Positions 8,077 to 21,362 of a stretch of 64,000 bases of DNA are shown piece after piece. Numbering within the stretch: the stretch's first letter is position 1; the number at the start of each line of letters is the position of its first letter. The notes under the pieces are model-generated. The model saw only the letters and a program-made list of their open reading frames with translations, did not search any database and was not told the origin of the DNA. The position numbers and the translations under genes were made by a program. Source of the DNA: Actinomycetota bacterium (lineage in GTDB: Bacteria > Actinomycetota > Acidimicrobiia > Acidimicrobiales > Ilumatobacteraceae). Location: contig JACQZZ010000048.1 of NCBI GenBank assembly GCA_016213625.1, positions 1 through 64,000 on the forward strand, given 5' to 3'.

Positions 8077-9018
8077 CTAGCGGCGCTCGTCGGCGGTCGG
8101 TTCGGTGGGTGCCTCGGTGCGCCCGAACGCGTCGGCCACTTCGCCGTAGGTGAGCGGGAATTCATCGGTGCCCGTGATCTCGGCTGCGGGCATGCGGCCG
8201 GAGCGGCGGTAGCTGTTCTGGGCCTCGACGCCCTTGCCGAACCGACGGAAGAACATGAAGATCACGATGGTCCACAGGTACATGCCGCCGAAGATCTTCA
8301 TGATCACGGCGGCCAACTGTTGATCGTCGATGGGGCTCAGGCCCCAGACGCGCACCGGCTGCTCGCCGTAGTGCGAGTACACCACGCCGTCGGCGAAGGT
8401 GAGCCATGCGGCCGGCAGCGTGGGCACCACGCTCTGCAGGAAGAGATAGATCATCTTCCCGCCGTACGACATCTGCAGTTCGGGGAGCGGCCCCACCACC
8501 GGCATCCACATCAGCACCGCGGTGAGCACCACGAACAGGTGCAGTGAGAAGTGCAGCACTCCGTTGGTGGTGGAGGCGTTCACCACGCCCGGCACGTGCA
8601 ACACCATCACCATCAGGTTGAAGATGACCGCGGCCACCACCGGCTTGCTGAAGAAGCGGACCACGCGGTACGTGCGACCCTGTCCGACGAGCGCGCGCAG
8701 CAACCATTCGGGCGTCGCCAGCAGCACCAGCGGAGGCAGCACGTAGCTGAGCAGGAAGTGCTGCACCATGTGAGCCGAGTAGAGGTAGCCCTCACCGATC
8801 TGGTGCACCGGCCACGTGCTGGCGAAGAACAGGATGAGCATCGACGCGATGAAGCAGTTGCGTTGCCGCCGGGTGATGACGGGTGTGCCGGGCTCCACCG
8901 CGTTGGGACCGATGTTGCGGACCATGTAGATGTACGCGCCCACCAGGAAGGCGACGAGCACGTACACCTCGGGATTGGGCTCGAACGCCCACGGATCGGC
9001 GAAGGTCGCCGCCGGCAT
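8077..9018 (-). CDS. ctaG: Cytochrome c oxidase assembly protein, CtaG family
   Basis: Polytopic membrane protein, 313 aa, of the caa3-oxidase CtaG family, which helps copper or oxidase assembly. This family differs from the Cox11-type CtaG. It has about seven hydrophobic segments. Histidines in the membrane part (WPVHQIGEGYL, HMVQHFLLSY, VLHVPGV, HFSLHLFVV) are typical and likely metal-related. It is the last gene of the oxidase operon, 3 nt after ctaF. The C-terminal 60 residues are hydrophilic. Confidence 0.85.
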   Translation of the reverse strand: MPAATFADPWAFEPNPEVYVLVAFLVGAYIYMVRNIGPNAVEPGTPVITRRQRNCFIASMLILFFASTWPVHQIGEGYLYSAHMVQHFLLSYVLPPLVLLATPEWLLRALVGQGRTYRVVRFFSKPVVAAVIFNLMVMVLHVPGVVNASTTNGVLHFSLHLFVVLTAVLMWMPVVGPLPELQMSYGGKMIYLFLQSVVPTLPAAWLTFADGVVYSHYGEQPVRVWGLSPIDDQQLAAVIMKIFGGMYLWTIVIFMFFRRFGKGVEAQNSYRRSGRMPAAEITGTDEFPLTYGEVADAFGRTEAPTEPTADERR

Positions 9019-9021
9019 GAT

Positions 9022-9366
9022 CTACGGCCTGAAGAACTGGAAGGTGAAGAGGAAGACCAGATACACGCCGATTGCGAGCACCAACCCCATGTAGAACATG
9101 AGGCTGAAGATCTTGCTGTCGAACTTCAGGTGCATGAAGATCGACACGATCATGAAGAACTTGATGGCCATCATGATGAGCAGCGCCGGGGTGGCGAAGC
9201 TGTCCATGCTGTCCGGCCACCAGTAGGTGCTGGTCTCGAGCGCGGTGACGATGGCCAGGATGATGGCGATCTTGATGAAGTAGCCATCGCTGGGCACGTG
9301 TTCGTCGTGCGCGTGATGGTGCTCGACAGCGTCGGCCTGGGCGGCGTGATCGGTGGTGGCGCTCAT
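9022..9366 (-). CDS. ctaF: Cytochrome c oxidase subunit IV
   Basis: Small membrane subunit of the caa3 oxidase, 114 aa. A His-rich N-terminus (VEHHHAHDEH) is followed by three hydrophobic segments with the sequence IFMHLKFDSKIFSLMF, characteristic of the prokaryotic COX4/CtaF family. It lies 10 nt downstream of ctaE and 3 nt upstream of ctaG in the same operon. Confidence 0.85.
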   Translation of the reverse strand: MSATTDHAAQADAVEHHHAHDEHVPSDGYFIKIAIILAIVTALETSTYWWPDSMDSFATPALLIMMAIKFFMIVSIFMHLKFDSKIFSLMFYMGLVLAIGVYLVFLFTFQFFRP

Positions 9367-9376
9367 GGTGCGTACC

Positions 9377-10015
9377 TCAGGACGGGATCAGGTAGACGAG
9401 GGTGAAGATGATGACCCAGACGACGTCGACGAAGTGCCAGTACAGGCCCACCATCTCGACGACCTCGGCCTTGTCGCCCGTGACGCGGTTGCGGGTGATG
9501 GCACCCACCAGCGCGAGCAGCATGATCACACCGACGGTGACGTGCACACCGTGGAAGCCGGTGAGGGTGTAGAAGCTCGACCCGAACAGGCTGGTCGTGA
9601 AGCCCAGACCCTCCTGGTAGAACGCCGTGAACTCGTAGACCTGGCCACCCACGAACAGGGCACCCAGCAACGCGGTGACCACGAGCCACAGGTTGGTGTT
9701 GCGGTCGTCCTTGCGCTTGGCCGAGTTCACCGCGAGCACCATGGTGAGCGAGCTCATCAGCAGGATGAAGCTGCTGACCGACGTGAGCGGGATGTCGAAG
9801 ATCTGGCTGGGACCGGGGCCGCCCTCGTGGCGGCCGCGGTACAGCATGTAGGTGGAGATGAGACCACCGAACAGGAGGCACTCACTGCCGAGGAACAGCC
9901 ACATGGCCAGCTTGTTGTTGCTGAGCCCCGTGCTGGTGGCGTGCACGACGTGATCGTCGTAGCCACCGTGCTCGGTGTGGGCGTGGTCCTCTTCGTGGAC
10001 TGCGATGTCAGCCAA
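9377..10015 (-). CDS. ctaE: Cytochrome c oxidase subunit III
   Basis: Membrane subunit III, 212 aa, with about five helices. It has the family segments GFHGVHVTVGVIMLL and YWHFVDVVWVIIF. The only start fitting the N-terminus is TTG at 10015, inside the end of ctaD (8-nt overlap). An AAGGAG lies about 10 nt upstream, so translation is probably coupled to ctaD. It continues the operon to ctaF. Confidence 0.93.
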   Translation of the reverse strand: MADIAVHEEDHAHTEHGGYDDHVVHATSTGLSNNKLAMWLFLGSECLLFGGLISTYMLYRGRHEGGPGPSQIFDIPLTSVSSFILLMSSLTMVLAVNSAKRKDDRNTNLWLVVTALLGALFVGGQVYEFTAFYQEGLGFTTSLFGSSFYTLTGFHGVHVTVGVIMLLALVGAITRNRVTGDKAEVVEMVGLYWHFVDVVWVIIFTLVYLIPS

Positions 10016-12020
10016 GGGTCGCCAACTCCTTCGTCGAGTCCCCGCCGGCCGGCGGGTCGTAATCGCTGTCGTCCGCGACGGACGGCTCGAGGCACCAGCC
10101 GAAGATGGCCAGCAACACTAGTGCCGTGCCCACGATGGTCAGCAGCAGGTTGAAGATCACGCCGTAGGCGATGATGGGAAAGCCCAGTGCGAGCACGATG
10201 GGCCAGTACGACGGCGACGGCAGGTGGATGTGGTGGTCGGCGTTGGCCTCTTCTTCGGCCAGCACCTCCTCGGCCGTCTTCACCTTCACCAACTTCGGTC
10301 CGTTCTCGGTGTCGACCTCTTCGTACTTGCGATGGAAGAACTCGTCGAGCGAGTGCACCGTCGGGATCCGGTCGAAGTTGTGCTCCTTCGGCGGGCTCGA
10401 GGTGATCCACTCCAGCGTGCGGGCGTCCCACGGGTCGAGCGGCGCAGCGACCTTCTTCTTCGCGGTGTAGAAGATGTTGATCACGAAGAGCAGCACGCCG
10501 GCGGCGATGACGAACGAACCGACGGAGGCCACCTGGTTCCAGAAGGCCAGGTCGAAGAATCCGTCACCGGTGAGCTTCTCGGGCCACACCACCATTCGAC
10601 GGGGTTGACCCTGCATGCCGAGGATGTGCATCGGGCCGAACGTGAGGTTCACGCCGAAGAACATCAGCCAGAAGTTCCACTTGCCGAGGCGCTCGCTGAG
10701 CATCTGGCCGAACATCTTCGGCCACCAGAAGTAGAAGCCGGCGAACAGGCCCATCACGGCCCCACCGACGATGACGTAGTGGAAGTGCGCCACGATGTGA
10801 TACGTGTCGGTCTGCTGGGTGTCGGACGGCGCCACGGCGTGGGTCACGCCCGACACGCCGCCGATGGTGAACAGCACGATGACGCCGATGGAGAACAGCA
10901 TCGCGGTGCTGAACCACAGCTTGCCGCCCCACAGCGTGAGCGTCCAGTTGACGATCTTCACGCCGGTGGGGATGGCGATGAGCATCGTGGCCACCGAGAA
11001 CACCGCCACGCTCACCGGGCCGAGACCACTGGCGAACATGTGGTGGGCCCACACGCCCCATCCGACGAAGCCGATGGCCGCGCCGGAGAACACGACGAAC
11101 TTGTAACCGAAGAGCGGCTTCCGAGCGAACGTGGGCAGCACCTCGGAGATGATCCCGAAGGCCGGAAGGATGATGATGTACACCTCAGGGTGACCGAAGA
11201 TCCAGAACAGGTGTTGCCACAGCAACGGATCGGCACCTTGGTTCACGTCGAAGAACGTGGCGCCGAAGTTGCGCTGGAAGCTCAACAGGAACAGTGCCAC
11301 GGTGATGACCGGCATGGCGAAGAGCAGCAGGAACTGCACGACGAGCACCATCCAGGTGAACACCGGCATGTTCATCAGCTTCATGCCCGGCGCCCGCATG
11401 TTGAGCACGGTGACGATGAGGTTGATGGCGCCCACCAGCGAGGCGATACCCGTGATCTGCAGACCCATCACCCAGAAATCGATGCCGTGGCTGGGCGAGA
11501 ACAGCGCGCTGCTGTTCGGCGAGTACATGAACCAGCCACCGTCGGCAGCACCACCGAGGAACCACGACGTGTTGAGGAAGATGCCGCCGAAGAGGAACAG
11601 CCAGAAGCCCACCGCGTTGATGCGGGGGAACGCCACGTCGCGAGCACCGATCTGCAACGGCAGGAAGTAGTTGGCGAACGCAGCGGCCATGGGCATCACG
11701 AAGAGGAACACCATGGTGGTGGCGTGCATCGTGAACATCTCGTTGTACAGGCCTGCGCTGAGCACCGTGTTGTCCGGTGCCGCCAACTGCAGGCGGATGA
11801 GCAGCGCCTCGATGCCGCCGACCAGGAAGAAGAACAGCGACACCGCGCCGTACATGATGCCCAGCTTCTTGTGGTCGACCGTGAACAGCCACGACTTCCA
11901 ACCGGTGGTGGACACCGGTCGGCGGTACGCGCCCAGGGCACGCGACGGCGTGACCAACTCGGTCGTGCCGCCCGCGCCGACAGTGGCGGGGACAGCAGAG
12001 GGTCGTTCGATGATGGCCAT
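10008..12020 (-). CDS. ctaD: Cytochrome c oxidase subunit I, with C-terminal extension
   Basis: Catalytic subunit of the aa3/caa3 oxidase, 670 aa. All ligands are present: His99 and one of His412/His414 for haem a and a3 (FTMHATTM; AHFHYV), CuB ligands His277 and His326-His327 (FGHPEVY; WAHHMF), and the cross-linked Tyr281. The protein is longer than the usual 550 residues. After the conserved TLEWITSSPP it carries about 130 residues with two more hydrophobic segments, an extension that some actinobacterial CtaD proteins have. It is the reference against which the paralogue at 15022-16662 was compared. Confidence 0.97.
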   Translation of the reverse strand: MAIIERPSAVPATVGAGGTTELVTPSRALGAYRRPVSTTGWKSWLFTVDHKKLGIMYGAVSLFFFLVGGIEALLIRLQLAAPDNTVLSAGLYNEMFTMHATTMVFLFVMPMAAAFANYFLPLQIGARDVAFPRINAVGFWLFLFGGIFLNTSWFLGGAADGGWFMYSPNSSALFSPSHGIDFWVMGLQITGIASLVGAINLIVTVLNMRAPGMKLMNMPVFTWMVLVVQFLLLFAMPVITVALFLLSFQRNFGATFFDVNQGADPLLWQHLFWIFGHPEVYIIILPAFGIISEVLPTFARKPLFGYKFVVFSGAAIGFVGWGVWAHHMFASGLGPVSVAVFSVATMLIAIPTGVKIVNWTLTLWGGKLWFSTAMLFSIGVIVLFTIGGVSGVTHAVAPSDTQQTDTYHIVAHFHYVIVGGAVMGLFAGFYFWWPKMFGQMLSERLGKWNFWLMFFGVNLTFGPMHILGMQGQPRRMVVWPEKLTGDGFFDLAFWNQVASVGSFVIAAGVLLFVINIFYTAKKKVAAPLDPWDARTLEWITSSPPKEHNFDRIPTVHSLDEFFHRKYEEVDTENGPKLVKVKTAEEVLAEEEANADHHIHLPSPSYWPIVLALGFPIIAYGVIFNLLLTIVGTALVLLAIFGWCLEPSVADDSDYDPPAGGDSTKELATLG

Positions 12021-12034
12021 CGGTGAGGGCTCCC

Positions 12035-13279
12035 TTACTTCCGCTCGAGGAGGTAGGCGACGAGTTCGTCGATCTGGTTCTCATTGAGATTCAGCATCGG
12101 CATCCCGCGGTACTTACCACCGGTGGAATCGAGATTGTTGGGGTCGACGTACATGGGCTTCATGCCCGGAGGATTGCGCAGCCAGTCGCGCAGGGCGGCT
12201 TCGTCGAAGCAGTCGGGAGTGACGCCTGCGAGGTACATCGCACCGAACTCGTCGGGCGAGGCGGTCCACAGCGCATCGCGGCACTCCTCGTTGATGAGGT
12301 CGAAGGTCCAGCCGGCGATCGCGGTACGGGTCATCAGGTTGGTGATGTTCGGCGCCACACCCGACACGACGTAGAGGTCGGGGTCGGAGAGCACAGGTGT
12401 GCCGTCGGCGTTGGCGATGCCATTCACCTGGTGGCACTTGCTGCAGTTGGCGATGAAGGTCTGCTCGCCGGTGGCAGCAAGGGTGCCGGCTTCGGGCGCG
12501 GTGTACGGTTCGAGCTGGTTGTCGACCCAGGTCTGGAAGTCTGCCTGGTTCAGCGCCACCGCCGCCTGGCGCATGCGAGCGTGACTGAGGCCGCAGAACT
12601 CGGTGCACTGCCCCGTGTAGATGCCGGGCTCGTCGGCCTGCATGCGCAGCGTGTGCAGACGGCCGGGGACCGCATCGCGCTTACCGTTGAGGCGCGGGAT
12701 CCAGTAGCTGTGGATGACGTCGCGGCTGGTGACACGCAACAGCACCGGGGTGTCGGCGGGAATGACCAGTTCGCCGCTGGTGACGATGGGCTGAGAGATC
12801 TCGACGCCGCCGCACTCGCCGGTGGCGTAGTCGTACTCCCACCACCACTGCTGACCGGTGACGTTGATGATGCACTCCGTGTCGTCCTGCTTGTTCAGGT
12901 CGAACACGGTGACGACCGTGGGCACTGCGATACCGGCCAGGATGATGGCCGGCAGGATGGTGAGCGCGATCTCGAGCTTCGGATTGCCGTGGGACTGCTC
13001 GGGGATGTCCTGCCCCCGGTCCTTGAACTTGAACACGATGTAGCCGACGGCACCGATCACGATGAGAGCGACCACGCCGGCGATGTAGAACACCGGCCGC
13101 TGCAGCGTGTCGATCTTCTCCGCGTTGGGGCCCGCCGGGTCGAAGTAGTCCTGCGGGGCGTTCGATGCGCACGACGCGAGGAACGTGCCCGCGCTCACTG
13201 CGAGGGCAGCGAGGGGCCAACGACGACGGGTGGAGGACATCTCCCCGAGGGTAGTCACGGTTGCTTCACTCCGGTCCAT
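12035..13279 (-). CDS. ctaC: Cytochrome c oxidase subunit II fused to cytochrome c
   Basis: Electron-entry subunit of a caa3-type oxidase, 414 aa. A lipoprotein signal is visible (lipobox LASC followed by ASN), then a second membrane segment, then the CuA cupredoxin domain with DVIHSYWIP and the CuA loop QCTEFCGLSHARM. The C-terminal cytochrome c domain has the haem motif CSKCH and a candidate axial Met (RGMPMLN). The frame is open upstream. I start at ATG 13279, 2 nt after the preceding stop (coupled translation); ATG 13240 would give a shorter, more typical signal peptide. Confidence 0.93.
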   Translation of the reverse strand: MDRSEATVTTLGEMSSTRRRWPLAALAVSAGTFLASCASNAPQDYFDPAGPNAEKIDTLQRPVFYIAGVVALIVIGAVGYIVFKFKDRGQDIPEQSHGNPKLEIALTILPAIILAGIAVPTVVTVFDLNKQDDTECIINVTGQQWWWEYDYATGECGGVEISQPIVTSGELVIPADTPVLLRVTSRDVIHSYWIPRLNGKRDAVPGRLHTLRMQADEPGIYTGQCTEFCGLSHARMRQAAVALNQADFQTWVDNQLEPYTAPEAGTLAATGEQTFIANCSKCHQVNGIANADGTPVLSDPDLYVVSGVAPNITNLMTRTAIAGWTFDLINEECRDALWTASPDEFGAMYLAGVTPDCFDEAALRDWLRNPPGMKPMYVDPNNLDSTGGKYRGMPMLNLNENQIDELVAYLLERK

Positions 13280-13281
13280 GA

Positions 13282-14430
13282 TCAGGGCACCACCAGCGAG
13301 ATTTCTTGCCCTTCCACACCAGGCACGGTGAGGCGGTAGGGGGTGGTGCTGGCAGCTTGCGACTTGTCGAGCCTGAAGGTGAGGAACGCCACGCCGTCCT
13401 GGTTCACGGCAGTCGTGCAGTCGGCCTGCTCGCTGCCGGCGGTGCCGTCGGCAGCAGGGAACGTTCCCAGATGCACGGTGAGGCGGCGGGGTTCTTCGGT
13501 CTTGTTGGTGAACAGCACGTGGACCGTCGTGCTCCGAGGCACGGTGATCTCGTGGTATTCGGTGTCGGCGGTGCCGAGGTTGAACGCCACCAAGCGCCCG
13601 TCCTCGGTGAGCTCGACGTTGGAGATGACGTTGCTCTTCGCGGCCACGTCCTGTGACGCCTTGTCGTCGATCTCCTCGGTCTCGGCCTCGGTGGCAGTGC
13701 CCAGGCAGACCGCCGTGCTGATGTGCGGGTGCTCCTCGATGGTGCGCTGCCCCGACACGGCGGAGGCCACGCCGACACCCACCAGGGCCAACGCACCGAC
13801 GGCGACGATGCCGGCCGCAGTGCCCTTGCTGAGCCCACGCTTGGCGGCGAACAGGAAGCCGATGGCGACGATGATGGTGCCGAGGATGATGAACACCCAT
13901 CGGCCGGCGTCCTTGCTGATGCTGAGCATGATGCGCGAGAACGCGTAGACCACGGCGGCACCGATGAGGGCTCCCACGATGGGGAACTCGAGGGGATGCA
14001 GGAGCCGGCGGCGAATGCCCTCGTTGTAGGCACGATCGGCGCTGGCGCGCTCGCTCCAACCCTGGATCATCCATTCGACCACCGTGGCGAGCACGACGAT
14101 GAGTGACACCTTGAACACGACGGGCTGGCTGACCGCACCGACGGCGAGGCCGCCCACGCCCACCGCACCGACGATGGGCCACAGACTGCGACCGACCGGC
14201 GGTTGCGCAGCGGCCGAGGTGCGCTCGACACCCGGCTCGAGCGCCGCCACGTTGCCGTCGCGGGTGTAGAGGTTGATGCCGGCGAGGAAGCCGAACACGG
14301 ACGCCAACGACACGAGGCCGATGGTGCCGAGGACACCCGCCGGGCCACCGGTGGTGACGCCGAACGCGATGGCGCCGACGACCGACAGGACGGTGGCTCC
14401 GAGGAGCAGTTTTGAACCAGTGGTGAACAT
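13282..14430 (-). CDS. Unknown membrane protein of the oxidase operon
   Basis: I do not recognise the family. The protein is 382 aa. The first 230 residues have seven or eight hydrophobic segments (first at 5-25). Two are followed by a conserved-looking region RRLLHPLEFPIVGALIGA. The last 145 residues are hydrophilic, and their predicted strands and Cys residues (STAVCLGTA, QADCTTAV) suggest an extracytoplasmic beta-sandwich, somewhat like a cupredoxin but without the Cys-His-Met copper set. It is located between the subunit III-like gene (10 nt) and ctaC (2 nt), so it is probably made with the oxidase. It could be an accessory or electron-entry partner of the ligand-less subunit I-like protein; that is inference. 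Confidence 0.75.
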   Translation of the reverse strand: MFTTGSKLLLGATVLSVVGAIAFGVTTGGPAGVLGTIGLVSLASVFGFLAGINLYTRDGNVAALEPGVERTSAAAQPPVGRSLWPIVGAVGVGGLAVGAVSQPVVFKVSLIVVLATVVEWMIQGWSERASADRAYNEGIRRRLLHPLEFPIVGALIGAAVVYAFSRIMLSISKDAGRWVFIILGTIIVAIGFLFAAKRGLSKGTAAGIVAVGALALVGVGVASAVSGQRTIEEHPHISTAVCLGTATEAETEEIDDKASQDVAAKSNVISNVELTEDGRLVAFNLGTADTEYHEITVPRSTTVHVLFTNKTEEPRRLTVHLGTFPAADGTAGSEQADCTTAVNQDGVAFLTFRLDKSQAASTTPYRLTVPGVEGQEISLVVP

Positions 14431-14440
14431 CGGCTCCCCG

Positions 14441-15022
14441 TTACTTCGTCACGTAGACCACGAACCACACCACAGCGAAGATCACGCTGTAGGCGTACCA
14501 ATACAGGGCGTGCGCCGACACGACCTCACGGTCGGTGGTGCGTCCGCCGAGGTAGCGGAACGCGGTGACGGCGCTGAAGACGACACCGACGATGGCGAGC
14601 AACATGCTCACGCCGGTGACGGAATAGAACATGACGCTGTAGGTGCCCTGGTTGGCGGGCAGCCCGATGGTGGCGTAGATGAACGCCTGGGCGTTGATGA
14701 GGGCGAGCCCGATGAGCGCGGTGAGCAGCAGCGCCAACCCGGTGTGCGGCTTGTCGTCGCGCTTGGCGGAGTAGACCGCCCACTGGGCGAAGATGCAGAT
14801 GGGAATGAGGGCGAGGAGCATCACGTTGGCGGCGACCATCGAGATCTTCGCCTCGCTGGGCATCCAGGTGCCATCGACCGCGCTGAGCGCCTCGTTGCGC
14901 ATGCGCAGGTACAGCGCCACCATGCCGCCGGTGAGGGCAGCCGCGGCAGCGACGGTGACAGCCGTGCCCACGAACACCTGGCGACGGGGTTCGGGGGCGG
15001 GAGCCGAGGGAAGTGCGAGCAT
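14441..15022 (-). CDS. Cytochrome oxidase subunit III-like protein (second copy)
   Basis: Membrane protein of 193 aa with five hydrophobic segments, related to subunit III but diverged. Where ctaE has GFHGVHVTVG and YWHFVDVV, this protein has MFYSVTGVSM and YWYAYSVI, so the conserved His residues are lost. Its ATG overlaps the stop of the subunit I-like gene by 1 nt (TGATG), so the two are translationally coupled and likely form a complex. It is not a redundant oxidase subunit III by sequence. Confidence 0.75.
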   Translation of the reverse strand: MLALPSAPAPEPRRQVFVGTAVTVAAAAALTGGMVALYLRMRNEALSAVDGTWMPSEAKISMVAANVMLLALIPICIFAQWAVYSAKRDDKPHTGLALLLTALIGLALINAQAFIYATIGLPANQGTYSVMFYSVTGVSMLLAIVGVVFSAVTAFRYLGGRTTDREVVSAHALYWYAYSVIFAVVWFVVYVTK

Positions 15023-16662
15023 CAGGCGTCACTCCGATTCGAAGACTTGAGGTCGAGCAGGGGCTCGGCCGAGCGCACGATGTGCACCTCGGCGAAGTTG
15101 TACTCAGGAGCCGGCGACGTGGTGGCCCACTCCAGGGTCTGGCCGTCCCAGGGGTCGTCACCGGCGTGGTCACCCTTGAGGAACGCGCGCAGGGCGAGCG
15201 CCACGAAGGCCAACACGGTGAGCAGGACGACCGCGTGGCCGATGGCGCTGAGTGCGTTCCACAGTTCCTGCGGACCGGAGTACTCGAACTTCACCACACC
15301 GTCGGTGCCGGGATCGACGGACGGGAACACCCCGCCCGGCTGATCGGCGAAGCCGGCGATGAACAGCGGCACGCTGGCAAGCGCTGCACCAACGAATCCC
15401 AGCAGGGCGAGCGGCAGGGTGGCCTTCAGCGCCATGGTGCGCCCCCACCACTTCGGACCCCAGTGCGCCACGGCGCCGAGTCCGGCGAGGACGCCTCCGT
15501 ACACCACGGCCAGCCACGCGCCCTCTTCGAAGACGGTGTCCATCAGGGCCGCGTCGCCGATGTGCTGCAGTGCGCTGGCCGCGAGGCCGAGGAGCACGAG
15601 GAGCGAGCCGAACAGCGCGAACACCAGCGGCGCACCGACCGTGGGCTTCTTCTTCAGCGCCGTGGCCGTGAGGGCCACGGCGAGGAAGGCGCCGATGAGC
15701 GGGAGGACGTGGACCAACGCGAACGGGATGAGGTCGGAGAACTTGTCGCTTCCCGACAGTGCGCTGAACCCGCTGCGGATGACGACCGGCTGTTGGACGG
15801 CCGAGGCGAACACTGCCGTGCCCACCAACCCGATGGCAGCGAAGATGCTGCCGCGAGGCGTGAGGCGAGCCCGGGTGCCCGTGGCCACGGTGTCGGCGAG
15901 GAAGCCGAACACGGGGATGGCGAAGATGGCCGTGGTGGGCTGCGTGAAGCCGAAGCCCGCCCAGTCGCTGATGGCCCGGTTGCCGCTGAACTCGCTGAGC
16001 GAGGGGTAGCGGTGACCGACGAACAAGTAGATCAGGTTGCCCACCAGCACCGGCAGCGCCGCGACCAGCGCCACCGACATGACGAGCGCCGACCAGGTGA
16101 ACCACGGCACGCGGCGCAGGTTCATCCCGGGAGCCCGGGTGGTGAGGATGGTGGTGGCCAGCGAGACCGTGGTGGCCAGCAGACCGACGATGGCCATCGA
16201 GCACGACAGGTAGAACAGATCGACGAACAGTGCGTTGCCACCGTTGGGTCCGCCATTGGCGACGATGGACACGATGGACACGATGGAGCCGATGAGCCAC
16301 GCCCAGAACCCGGCGGCGGCGAGCCGCGGGAAGGCGATGGACCGGGCGCCCACCTGCAGCGGCACGACCGCCGTGGCGACACCGATGACGAGCGGCAGCA
16401 GCACCACGTAGGTGAGGCCGAATCGGTAGATCGAGAACAGCTGCGTCAGCGATTCGATGGGCAGCACCGTGCCACCCGTGTCGACGCGCTCGAACGCGAG
16501 CAGCGCAGCCACGACGACCGACCCGATGAGTGCCACGGCCGCTGAACCGAGGTACAGGCGGCCGATCTTCTTGTGGTCGGTCGTGGTGACCCAGTCGGCG
16601 ACGCACGCCAACCCGGCGCTTGCCGGAGCAGCGCTGGTTGCGTGGGTATCGATGGTGGTCAT
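15022..16662 (-). CDS. Haem-copper oxidase subunit I-like protein lacking metal ligands
   Basis: 546 aa, clearly homologous to CtaD of this window: shared TTDHKKIG, PLQVGARSIAFPR, TRAPGMNL and TLEWATTSP in the same order. Yet the ligands are gone: haem a His99 of CtaD is Tyr79, CuB His277 is Gln241, cross-linked Tyr281 is Ala245, the CuB pair His326-His327 is Gln290-Gln291, and the HFH motif is missing near 380-387. The frame is intact over full length, so this is not simple decay. ATG 16662 is preferred over a TTG at 16668. It is first in the oxidase operon; a TAATGT hexamer at 16753-16758 is a weak promoter candidate. It cannot be an oxidase in the known sense; role unknown. Confidence 0.85.
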   Translation of the reverse strand: MTTIDTHATSAAPASAGLACVADWVTTTDHKKIGRLYLGSAAVALIGSVVVAALLAFERVDTGGTVLPIESLTQLFSIYRFGLTYVVLLPLVIGVATAVVPLQVGARSIAFPRLAAAGFWAWLIGSIVSIVSIVANGGPNGGNALFVDLFYLSCSMAIVGLLATTVSLATTILTTRAPGMNLRRVPWFTWSALVMSVALVAALPVLVGNLIYLFVGHRYPSLSEFSGNRAISDWAGFGFTQPTTAIFAIPVFGFLADTVATGTRARLTPRGSIFAAIGLVGTAVFASAVQQPVVIRSGFSALSGSDKFSDLIPFALVHVLPLIGAFLAVALTATALKKKPTVGAPLVFALFGSLLVLLGLAASALQHIGDAALMDTVFEEGAWLAVVYGGVLAGLGAVAHWGPKWWGRTMALKATLPLALLGFVGAALASVPLFIAGFADQPGGVFPSVDPGTDGVVKFEYSGPQELWNALSAIGHAVVLLTVLAFVALALRAFLKGDHAGDDPWDGQTLEWATTSPAPEYNFAEVHIVRSAEPLLDLKSSNRSDA

Positions 16663-16787: not shown

Positions 16788-17735
16788 TCATGCACCGTGC
16801 TGCACGAGGACGTCGATGGTCATCGCGGCGAACAGCAGGGTGACATAGGTGATGGAGTACCCGAACACCCGCATCGAACGCTGCGGCGTGGGGTTCCGAC
16901 CGAGGTCGATGGTGCCCACGAGGAACAGCAGACCGAGCACGATGGCCGTGATGCCGTAGATGAGCCCGAGTCCGGCGACGGGCCACAGCACCAGGGTGCT
17001 CACCACCATCAGCGCGGTGTACAGCACCATCTTGCGCACGGTGACCTCCATCGAGGCCACGGCCGGCAGCATGGGCACGTTGGCCGCGCGATAGTCGTCG
17101 GCGTAGCGGATGGCCAGCGCCCAGAAGTGCGGCGGTGTCCACAGGAACATCACCACGAAGAGCACCACCGGCGTCCAGGTGACGTTGTTCTGCACGGCCG
17201 ACCAGCCCACGAGCACCGGCACGGCACCGGCGGCGCCGCCGATGACGATGTTCTGCGTGCTGGTGCGCTTCAGCCAGAGCGTGTAGACGAACACGTAGAA
17301 CAACGTGGCCGACAGTGCGAGGACCGCAGAGAGGAAGTTCGCCCACGTCCACAGCACGGCGAACGCGACGACCTCGAGGGCGATGGCGAACACCAGCGCT
17401 TCCCGTGGCTGCACGAGCCCGGTGACCAGCGGCCGTCCTTGCGTACGCGGCATGAGCTTGTCGATGTCGCGGTCGACCACCATGTTGATCGCGTTCGCAC
17501 CGCCGGCGGCGAGCGTGCCACCGATGAGCGTGACCAGCACGAGCCACGTGGCCGGCCAACCCTGCTCGGCCAACACCCTGGTGGGCACCGTGGTGATGAG
17601 CAGCAGCTCGATGATGCGCGGCTTGGTGAGCGCGATGAAGCCGCCGACGCGAGAGGTGGGAGTACGACGCGACCCGTGCGACACGCCACCGGGCGCGAGC
17701 CTCGAGGGCACGATGGGACGGGCGCCGACTGCCAT
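16788..17735 (-). CDS. ctaB: Protohaem IX farnesyltransferase (haem O synthase)
   Basis: UbiA-type prenyltransferase that adds a farnesyl group to haem B, the first step to haem A for the oxidase encoded downstream. 315 aa, about nine hydrophobic segments. The first Asp-rich motif is NMVVDRDIDKLMPRT followed by QGRPL; the second region is YADDYRAANVPMLP. ATG 17735 is chosen; TACGAT 9 nt upstream is a plausible -10. The frame is open further upstream. No haem A synthase (ctaA) is in the window. Confidence 0.93.
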   Translation of the reverse strand: MAVGARPIVPSRLAPGGVSHGSRRTPTSRVGGFIALTKPRIIELLLITTVPTRVLAEQGWPATWLVLVTLIGGTLAAGGANAINMVVDRDIDKLMPRTQGRPLVTGLVQPREALVFAIALEVVAFAVLWTWANFLSAVLALSATLFYVFVYTLWLKRTSTQNIVIGGAAGAVPVLVGWSAVQNNVTWTPVVLFVVMFLWTPPHFWALAIRYADDYRAANVPMLPAVASMEVTVRKMVLYTALMVVSTLVLWPVAGLGLIYGITAIVLGLLFLVGTIDLGRNPTPQRSMRVFGYSITYVTLLFAAMTIDVLVQHGA

Positions 17736-17818
17736 AACGGCCCCATCGTACGGGTCGCTCGGCACGCGCACCACCTGAGCGCCCACCCGTTCCCCGTCGG
17801 CGACGGCAGAATGTCGCC

Positions 17819-18115
17819 ATGGCACCGACGACGGCACCCGTTCGAGTGGAGGAACACGACACCGATCAGTCCGTCGCGCCCGATCGCCCGTGGATCGTCC
17901 TGGTCTGGAACGACCCCATCAACCTGATGAGCTACGTCACGATGGTGCTGCAGAAGGTGTTCGGCTACAGCCTCGAGAAGGCGACGTCGTTGATGCTCGA
18001 CGTGCACCACAAGGGACGAGCGGTGGTCAGCAACGGCACCCGCGAGAAGGCCGAGATCGACGTGTTCCGTCTGCACGAGCACGGGTTGTGGGCCACGATG
18101 CAACAGGACGACTGA
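17819..18115 (+). CDS. clpS: ATP-dependent Clp protease adaptor ClpS
   Basis: Adaptor that binds N-degron substrates and delivers them to ClpC/ClpA-ClpP, 98 aa. The substrate pocket segment [17 protein letters not shown] and the conserved VHHKGRAVV are visible. No Shine-Dalgarno precedes ATG 17819; CAGAAT 6 nt upstream may be a -10 of a leaderless mRNA. Its stop overlaps the next start (TGATG), so it forms an operon with the ribosome-rescue factor gene. Confidence 0.93.
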
Positions 18116-19305: not shown

Positions 19306-19622
19306 GATTGGTATCCCTCCCTGCGACCGCTCATTCGGGATCGATCGCAAGGCCCATGGTGCGCCCGGGTCCAATTCGTCACTAGGGCACAATGTTCCCG
19401 ACCCGGTGGGACTTTCGGAGGGATTGCGCGCGCAATTGGTCCGTCGACGCACCGATATCGCCGCTGACCAGGGCTGACGCGCTTCAAGGAACCGTCAATC
19501 GGTCCTGCCAAGGGCGAAGGGTCCGCCACCCTCGGTGACATTGGGTGTCGATGTTGACACGCAGAGTGAAGCCGCGCTACGGTGCCGAGGTTGCCCGGGG
19601 TGGGCACACGGGAGAGGGCGAC
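19306..19622. other. 317-bp divergent intergenic region
   Basis: No gene is seen here. It holds the Shine-Dalgarno of the minus-strand gene, a sigma70-like promoter for the plus-strand FtsH-like gene at 19554-19583, and no strong repeats. Codon-like composition is absent. Confidence 0.6.
19554..19583 (+). promoter_or_regulatory. Sigma70-like promoter of the FtsH-like gene
   Basis: TTGACA at 19554-19559 and TACGGT at 19578-19583 are separated by 18 bp. The leader to the ATG at 19623 would be about 35 nt and contains GGGAGAGGG as ribosome binding site. Confidence 0.6.
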
Positions 19623-21362
19623 ATGGACATCCTTCGGTTGCAGCACGGCGAGGTCGTGCGCAGCGAACACACCGACACCAACTCGCATCGCGAGCACCAA
19701 CGGCGGCGCCGACTGTGGAAGCTGGTCGTGTTCCTCGGCATCCCGCTCGGCTGGATCTGGTACCGGGAGCTGGCCGGCGATCCTGTGAGCTTCGGATTCC
19801 CGGCGATCATCCGCGAGAGCCCCGAGCTGGCGCTGCTCGTGGTGATGATGGTCGTGATGATGTCGATGATGCTCATCCCGTTCATCGGTGCCGGCCGCTC
19901 GCCGCACACCCTGTTGCGTCCCGAGGACTCGAAGACCCGTCTGAAGGACGTCGTCGGTGCGCATGGCACCAAGCGCGAGGCCATCGACACGCTCAACATC
20001 TTCCTCAACCACGAGACCTTCCTGAACGAGATGGGCGGCAGCGCTCGCCGCGGCGTGCTGTTCGAGGGGCCTCCCGGCACCGGCAAGACCCACCTCGCGA
20101 AGGCGCTCGCGGCCGAGGCCGGCGTGCCCTTCCTGTTCGTGTCGGCCAGCGAGTTCCAGTCGATGTTCTACGGCCAGACCAATCGCAAGATCCGTTCGTT
20201 CTTCAAGGCGTTGCGCAAGGCCGCTCGCGCCGAGGGCGGCGCGATCGGCTTCATCGAGGAGTTCGACGCCATCGGCGGGGCTCGCTCCGGCATGGGCACG
20301 AACACCAGCCGCGAAGGCGGCTCGGGCGTCGTGAACGAACTGCTCGTGCAGATGCAGAGCTTCGAACTGCCCACCGGCTGGCAGAAGTTCAAGGCGTGGT
20401 TCACCGATCGCCTGAACCGCTTGCTGCCCGGACATCGCAACATGAAGCGAGCCCCGCTGAAGACCGCCAACGTGTTGGTCATCGCCGCCACGAACCGGGC
20501 CTCCGAGCTCGATCCCGCCCTGCTCCGTCCGGGTCGCTTCGACCGCACCATCCACTTCGACCTGCCGCCGCGCGCCGACCGTCTGGAGATCGCCGAGTAC
20601 TACCTCGCCCGCAAGGCGCACGACCACACACTGGGCGCCGCGTACGTGGCCGACCTCACCGCCGGCTACACGCCGGTGCGCATCGAGAAGCTGCTCGACG
20701 AAGCATTGGTCGTGGCGCTGCGCGACGGCCGCAAGCAGATGAACTACCACGACGTACTGGCCGCGCAACTGGTCACCGAGATCGGCGTGTCGCACGACGT
20801 GGGCTATCACCCCGACGAGCGCCGCCGCGTCGCGGTGCACGAGGCCGGGCACGCGCTGCTCGCCGCACTCACCGGTCGCGATGTGAAGGTGGCGTCCATC
20901 CTGCGCCGCTCCGGCTCGCTGGGCCTGGTCGCCCACGGCGAGATGGAGGAGCGCTACCTGAAGACGCCGGCGGAGGCCACCGATCTGATGGCCGTCGCAC
21001 TCGCCGGACGTGCAGCAGAGATCCAGGAGTTCGGCGAGGCGTCGAGCGGCATCTCCAGCGACCTCGCCGCAGCCACCAACATGGCGGCGCAACTGGTGGG
21101 CATGCTGGGCGCAGGTGGCAGCCTGCTCAGCCTGGAAGCCGCACACATGCCAGGAGCGGGCAACCTCGTGGCGAAGGTGTTCCACGACGAGAAGGCGCGG
21201 TCGCGCGCCGACGAGTACATGAACACGGCCGCCGACCGAGCCGCGTGCGCGGTGCTCGAGCATCGTCGTGCGCTCCTGGCACTGGCCGACGCGCTGTGCG
21301 ACCAGGACGAGCTGAACGGCGACGAGGTGCACGCCATCGTCGCCGGGGCGATGGCCACCTGA
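19623..21362 (+). CDS. FtsH-like membrane AAA+ metalloprotease
   Basis: 579 aa. Two membrane segments (about 33-48 and 68-90) are separated by only about 20 residues, so the usual FtsH periplasmic domain is nearly absent. The AAA domain has Walker A GPPGTGKTH (149-157), Arg fingers in LLRPGRFDR, and Walker B FIEEFD with Glu212 where FtsH has Asp. The protease domain has HEAGH (406-410) and a third zinc-ligand candidate Asp in GISSDLAAAT. An insert (about 240-275, TGWQKFKAWFTDRLNR) before the second region of homology is unusual. It acts at the membrane in protein turnover. It may be a second FtsH rather than the housekeeping one. Confidence 0.85.
   Translation: MDILRLQHGEVVRSEHTDTNSHREHQRRRRLWKLVVFLGIPLGWIWYRELAGDPVSFGFPAIIRESPELALLVVMMVVMMSMMLIPFIGAGRSPHTLLRPEDSKTRLKDVVGAHGTKREAIDTLNIFLNHETFLNEMGGSARRGVLFEGPPGTGKTHLAKALAAEAGVPFLFVSASEFQSMFYGQTNRKIRSFFKALRKAARAEGGAIGFIEEFDAIGGARSGMGTNTSREGGSGVVNELLVQMQSFELPTGWQKFKAWFTDRLNRLLPGHRNMKRAPLKTANVLVIAATNRASELDPALLRPGRFDRTIHFDLPPRADRLEIAEYYLARKAHDHTLGAAYVADLTAGYTPVRIEKLLDEALVVALRDGRKQMNYHDVLAAQLVTEIGVSHDVGYHPDERRRVAVHEAGHALLAALTGRDVKVASILRRSGSLGLVAHGEMEERYLKTPAEATDLMAVALAGRAAEIQEFGEASSGISSDLAAATNMAAQLVGMLGAGGSLLSLEAAHMPGAGNLVAKVFHDEKARSRADEYMNTAADRAACAVLEHRRALLALADALCDQDELNGDEVHAIVAGAMAT

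Follow-up and report, generated by a model that had tools for sequence, protein, structure and literature searches.

The window, by which we mean the whole 64,000 nt stretch analysed here, carries a normal caa3 oxidase operon on its minus strand and, tightly linked to it, a module of three further genes. The catalytic subunit I, CtaD (10008..12020, (-)), scores 691.9 bits with TIGR02891, above the cut-off, and has all ligands; its C-terminus additionally shows a match to subunit IV (PF12270) at residues 596-646. It is preceded by caa3 subunit II, CtaC (12035..13279, (-); TIGR02866, 4.9e-57), which combines a CuA motif with a fused haem c domain, its motifs reading CTEFCGLSHARM and CSKCH, and is followed by subunit III of the functional oxidase, CtaE (9377..10015, (-); Pfam COX3, 1.6e-21), subunit IV, CtaF (9022..9366, (-); Pfam COX4_pro, 1.7e-07), and the caa3 assembly factor CtaG (8077..9018, (-); Pfam Caa3_CtaG, 2.6e-45). 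Haem o synthase, CtaB (16788..17837, (-)), which exceeds the cut-off of the NCBIfam heme o synthase model with 395.4 bits, lies at the far end, and the three module genes, COX1L, COX3L and G3, fill the space between CtaB and CtaC. The original prediction had made COX1L the first gene of the operon, which is nearly right, except that ctaB sits on the same strand 125 bp upstream. Haem A synthase (PF02628) gave no match in the window's assembly G000 and is present in 9/10 genomes tested; it may simply be missing from G000, since this assembly is 92% complete. Near the operon, a frame at 19545-21362 (+) resembles an FtsH-like AAA protease, its motifs being recognised by eye.

COX1L (15022..16662, (-); Pfam COX1, E=1.7e-29) is a ligand-less paralogue of haem-copper oxidase subunit I, which reads 546 aa from an ATG start to a single stop, so that the frame is intact as originally described. 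The full-length alignment with CtaD, also encoded on the minus strand, was reproduced by BLASTP over residues 23-542 with 28% identity (E=3e-44). With the A-type subunit I CtaD (TIGR02891, NF050116) COX1L shares full-length homology, a 12-helix fold and the motifs DHK, PLQxGAR, RAPGM and TLEW, but unlike CtaD it lacks the haem and copper ligand set and the proton-channel residues, and it scores far under the CtaD family cut-offs (180.9 against 670.75 and 153.2 against 880). An AlphaFold2 model, computed from 31 aligned sequences (24 close family members, that of the window among them, plus L024 and six CtaD-like rows; L026, L027 and L032 from these six were confirmed with all ligands), reached a pLDDT of 82.3 and a pTM of 0.87 with 12 membrane helices. 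Every one of the 50 Foldseek matches shown for this model is a haem-copper oxidase, with query TM-scores of 0.69-0.83, the top value being reached with the caa3 oxidase 2yev, and 40/40 sequence matches in the PDB are to oxidase subunit I, either as a chain by itself or as part of a fusion. By sequence and by fold, COX1L therefore belongs to haem-copper oxidase subunit I.

Alignment with CtaD confirmed most of the substitutions that had been read from the sequence beforehand: the haem a His is Tyr79, the first CuB His is Gln241, the cross-link Tyr is Ala245, HFH is missing and the C-terminal TLEW is retained. One assignment has to be revised, as the CuB His pair corresponds to Ser287-Ala288 in the BLASTP alignment and not to Gln290-Gln291, which lie one helical turn further on. 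We extended the comparison to 47 distinct sequences of the window's family (55 loci, with those identical over residues 61-400 removed) and 31 CtaD sequences. Among the ligands, the first CuB His and the haem a3 His are each kept in 0/47 COX1L versus 31/31 CtaD; the same counts apply to the Asp of the D channel, the Lys of the K channel and the Glu on helix VI, and of the Arg pair the first residue is kept by 1/47 and the second by 0/47. None of the six canonical His is left in 32/47 sequences, one is left in 14/47 and two in 1/47. The low-spin haem His pair never occurs together in this family (0/47), the haem a His of helix II being found in 3/47 and that of helix X in 1/47. A His stands in the loosely aligned CuB H3 column in 12/47, and the cross-link Tyr column holds a Tyr in 14/47 relatives, none of which has the partner His CuB H1. 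Gln290 and Gln241 are conserved in 42/47 and 37/47 sequences, respectively. The original prediction had allowed for His residues elsewhere filling the haem and CuB sites. Across the 47 sequences only H30, which is part of the DHK motif common to CtaD, and H217 (74%) are conserved at a level of at least 70%; with no further conserved His, hidden relocated ligands were rejected. Conserved polar residues specific to the family are E58, R59, R80, N136, Q290, E379, E380 and D440, each present in 38 to 45 of the 47 sequences.

The two genes downstream of COX1L, which the original prediction had overlooked as degenerate partners of subunit III and IV type, complete the module; the earlier interpretation is supported in part. 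COX3L (14441..15022, (-)), whose ATG shares one base with the COX1L stop, encodes a degenerate subunit III paralogue of 193 aa (Pfam COX3, 9.5e-07), its sole NCBIfam match being aa3_CtaE_Actin, the actinobacterial aa3 subunit III, at 3.9e-14 and below cut-off. G3 (13282..14430, (-)) starts 10 bases past COX3L, and CtaC starts 2 bases past the G3 stop. G3 consists of a subunit-IV-like membrane part (about residues 1-235) with seven long helices and a C-terminal cupredoxin fold (about 265-382). PF12270 (Cyt_c_ox_IV) matches 17/24 members of the G3 family at the lenient limit of E<=1, with a best value of 3.9e-08, and gives no match at E<=1 in the G3 of the window itself. The whole G3 model is poor (pLDDT 66.5, pTM 0.37), with a pLDDT of 69-88 in the C-terminal block, for which the best Foldseek hits are cupredoxins. 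A motif search for the His-Cys-His-Met ligands of type-1 copper was positive in 0/21 loci of the window's family. Two Cys of G3, C242 and C338, show no variation among 24 family members and possibly form a disulphide in place of a copper site. COX1L, COX3L and G3 hence represent oxidase subunits I, III and IV, with subunit II missing and no cofactors, i.e. a "ghost" oxidase. With the actinobacterial bcc-aa3 oxidase (CtaD/CtaE/CtaF) the module has in common the aa3_CtaE_Actin match of COX3L and the PF12270 matches of the G3 relatives, unlike that supercomplex oxidase it comes without subunit II.

The module is widely kept in its genomic setting. COX1L was found at E<=1e-40 in 174/200 genomes of the window's family and in 73/79 of the good assemblies. 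Among five inspected genomes of the 26 negative ones, two had no COX1 match at all, in two the contig ended inside G3, and in the fifth the COX1L frame was split. In genome G074, COX1L is present as two overlapping frames (L188, 2625-4120, (-)), reflecting either an assembly error or a recent loss. The order CtaB-COX1L-COX3L-G3-CtaC on one strand is preserved in 39/40 fetched loci, which had been selected because G3 or COX1L matched, the exception being L116; all nine genes through CtaG are in order in 27/40. In six loci (L115, L121, L128, L129, L135 and L140) the stretch or contig ends before the operon does, and in another six (L103, L105, L108, L110, L112 and L122) a CtaG match is absent although the stretch continues. 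G3 and CtaC are separated by 5.0 kb in L115, and CtaB and COX1L by 3.6 kb in L124. In the associated operons, CtaC has both the CuA and the haem c motif in 9/9 loci checked, and the CtaD ligands are retained in every full-length row read. The CtaD frame is broken in L137 (12023-14006, (+), genome G078), where it is spread over several overlapping frames next to a whole COX1L, probably due to an assembly error. Genome G038 contains a second CtaD (L182, 9700 onward, (-); 1116 bits) without adjoining CtaC, CtaE or module.

For the order as a whole G3 was chosen as the marker of the module, since it cannot be confused with CtaD. Of 96 order genomes, 60 have both the operon CtaD and G3, none has CtaD only, two have G3 only and 34 have neither, a co-occurrence for which the Fisher P overstates independence because the genomes are related; in both G3-only genomes CtaD is interrupted by a contig end. 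Outside the order, 92 genomes of the class carry CtaD at E<=1e-200, G3 being found in G209 only, and neither COX1L nor COX3L was seen in 20 fetched caa3 operons of other class orders, some of them incomplete. As COX1L is thus missing from the related caa3 operons fetched from these orders, the module is dispensable for caa3 chemistry. In 9/20 of these operons (L163, L165, L169, L170, L171, L173, L174, L177 and L178) a membrane-anchored cupredoxin follows CtaG, and all nine display a copper-type Cys/His/Met motif by eye; this cupredoxin may be an electron donor and the source of the G3 C-terminus.

COX1L is under purifying selection, with dN/dS values of 0.031-0.087 in eight close pairs, of which seven are distinct (L089 and L135 are identical) and some have a sequence in common. 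COX3L (0.05-0.27) and G3 (0.08-0.17) are less constrained than COX1L; CtaC gave 0.046-0.094 in six pairs and CtaD 0.012-0.143 in three computable pairs. Together with the presence in 174/200 genomes and the conserved gene order, these values bear out the description of COX1L as a maintained, non-oxidase protein, and the conservation across relatives is unlike that of a pseudogene. At the same time COX1L is fast-evolving, with a mean evolutionary distance of 1.44 versus 0.46 for CtaD. Its constraint is also distributed differently: mean pair identity is 0.56 in cytosolic segments, 0.42 in periplasmic segments and 0.36-0.42 in TM6-9, compared to 0.76, 0.80 and 0.80-0.93 in CtaD, where we take the sides of the COX1L segments from the canonical topology. 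Helices VI-IX, the old catalytic helices, are the least conserved helices of COX1L. Exceptions to the cytosolic pattern are the periplasmic segment P3, which is the most conserved (0.73), and the cytosolic segments N6 and N8, which are low (0.33 and 0.34). Constraint in COX1L has moved away from helices VI-IX, and the cytosolic segments now show the highest average.

In a tree of 89 rows, computed by a quick method with SH-aLRT support only and leaving aside roughly half the CtaD rows as well as L137 and further family loci, 39 COX1L fall together on the same side of a branch supported at 100 (midpoint root, long-branch warning), and COX1L looks like one clade. The copies from L115, L117 and L121 attach nearest CtaD. 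Haem and copper ligands are present among these relatives, a feature that had escaped the original prediction. Across the order, the low-spin haem His pair occurs in 4/40 loci (L115, L117, L118 and L121). In L117 and L121 the His on helix II and the helix-X HxH are both still there, the first CuB His being replaced by Arg, and L115 and L118 keep of the ligands only the low-spin pair; CuB H1 is found in 0/40 module copies. By motif search the G3 of L115, L117 and L121 carries a type-1 copper motif, which was detected at no other COX1L locus. In the other 12 families of the order (16 loci read), 0-35 residues are left at the position of the G3 cupredoxin, and in the window's family the cupredoxin fold is retained with the copper ligands gone. 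Since the members nearest CtaD have the His pair and the copper motif and the others are mostly without, it seems that an electron-transfer module shed its cofactors and retained its protein. No relatives of the L117 protein were found in viral contigs. L116 was also positive in the type-1 copper motif search; its COX1-cupredoxin fusion was set aside as a candidate for the ancestral form and is read as a different, CcoN-like protein.

QcrC_actin was detected at E<=1e-40, a limit which we chose from the match listing, in 10/62 G3-bearing order genomes versus 33/34 without G3, and in the window's own genome it matches at E=1.3e-7 only, short of this limit. A pseudo-complex IV within a bcc supercomplex was consequently dropped, as most module-bearing genomes have no QcrC_actin at this limit. 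Cytochrome b gave a match in 16/16 genomes tested, which in 15 of them, including that of the window, is partial and in a short frame; we read these partial matches as a b6-like form. From the QcrC_actin distribution and the cytochrome b matches, the caa3 operon and the ghost module seem to be part of a second type of respiratory chain and not of the bcc-aa3 supercomplex. Alternative complex III was rejected as a partner, its marker ActD (PF11821) being present in 0/296 genomes of the class.

With its metal-binding residues lost and selection preserving it, the look-alike subunit set is probably a structural partner and not an enzyme. On the basis of operon linkage, co-occurrence and distance tracking, the balance tips slightly towards the ghost module being a membrane partner, itself non-catalytic, of the caa3 oxidase with which it shares an operon; it would be lodged within that oxidase or lie against it. 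Evolutionary distances correlate with partial r values, given CtaB (34 loci), of 0.59 for COX1L-CtaD and 0.62 for COX1L-COX3L, comparable to 0.59 for CtaD-CtaE, and more weakly for G3 (0.40 with COX1L, 0.15 with CtaE); such rate correlation is weak evidence for partnership, as it is confounded by the shared species tree. A more specific proposal, which we put forward tentatively, is an asymmetric pseudo-dimer of a catalytic caa3 protomer and a cofactor-less I/III/IV protomer, reached stepwise from a copper/haem relay of which intermediates would persist in certain lineages. The ancestor would have been an electron-transfer module working with caa3 and passing electrons from type-1 copper to low-spin haem. 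Its redox centres could have been lost once electron input ran via the cytochrome c domain fused to CtaC, leaving a unit that stabilises or docks, anchored probably through its cytosolic face and COX3L. In the resulting asymmetric complex a working protomer would be paired with a dead one.

The main rival to the partner reading is an assembly scaffold, in which the module would, during biogenesis, hold nascent CtaD/CtaE or hand haem or copper on to them and would be absent from the finished enzyme. Biogenesis genes are indeed close by, with ctaB adjoining in 39/40 loci and ctaG in the window operon, and the module co-occurs with the caa3 CtaD. However, related caa3 operons of other orders manage without it, a joint duplicate of subunits I, III and IV resembles a complex more than a chaperone, and redox ligands are found in the relatives nearest CtaD, so that we assign this rival about one chance in several. 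Less probable still is an independent channel or transporter, in which the old oxidase scaffold would conduct protons, another ion, copper or a small molecule. The family-specific set of conserved polar residues in COX1L would suit such a role, whereas helices VI-IX are the least conserved and the module is tied to oxidase genes; the proton channel, one of the functions originally envisaged, is weakened in particular, since 47/47 sequences have lost the Asp of the D channel, the Lys of the K channel and the Glu of helix VI.

Continued electron carriage through haem or copper bound by other residues appears very unlikely to us. It could draw on the low-spin His pair of the four order-wide loci and on the His found in the CuB H3 column in 12/47 family sequences, but that pair is present in none of the window-family sequences, H217 is the only His beyond H30 conserved at a level of at least 70%, and the cupredoxin is without a copper motif in 21/21 family loci read. 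Scarcely credible is a passenger decaying en route to a pseudogene: COX1L diverges fast, its frame is split in two in G074, and among the matches listed seven COX1L read across one TGA, yet the remaining ones among these matches have no inner stop, dN/dS in close pairs lies well below 1, and the gene is present throughout most of the family. For the family as a whole, the dN/dS values reject a pseudogene.

Cofactor-poor relatives of a redox subunit which act as structural partners exist in CydB of cytochrome bd and in ActF of alternative complex III, the folds of both being unrelated to those of the haem-copper oxidase module. Its haems and copper are what define subunit I of the haem-copper oxidases, and yet a full-length relative is kept order-wide, together with partners of subunit III and IV type, mostly without the defining chemistry of its family. 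The natural series from haem and type-1 copper to nothing offers a way to ask what the oxidase scaffold does besides chemistry, and it raises the question whether respiratory oxidases can be heterodimers of a working and a dead half. In the open-access papers searched, including passages of PMC8239418 and PMC9145763, no prior description of the ghost module was found.

Other orders of the class contain a second, CcoN-like COX1 family, in which HH/HxH is missing in all four members read: L152 (6367-8361, (-)), L159 (7108-9240, (+)), L157 (6984-8711, (+)) and L116 (7093-9219, (-)). The L116 protein finds matches at E<=1e-12 in 83/296 genomes, some of them via its cupredoxin part only. Several of these proteins are fusions, L152 and L159 with a haem c motif and L116 with a cupredoxin.
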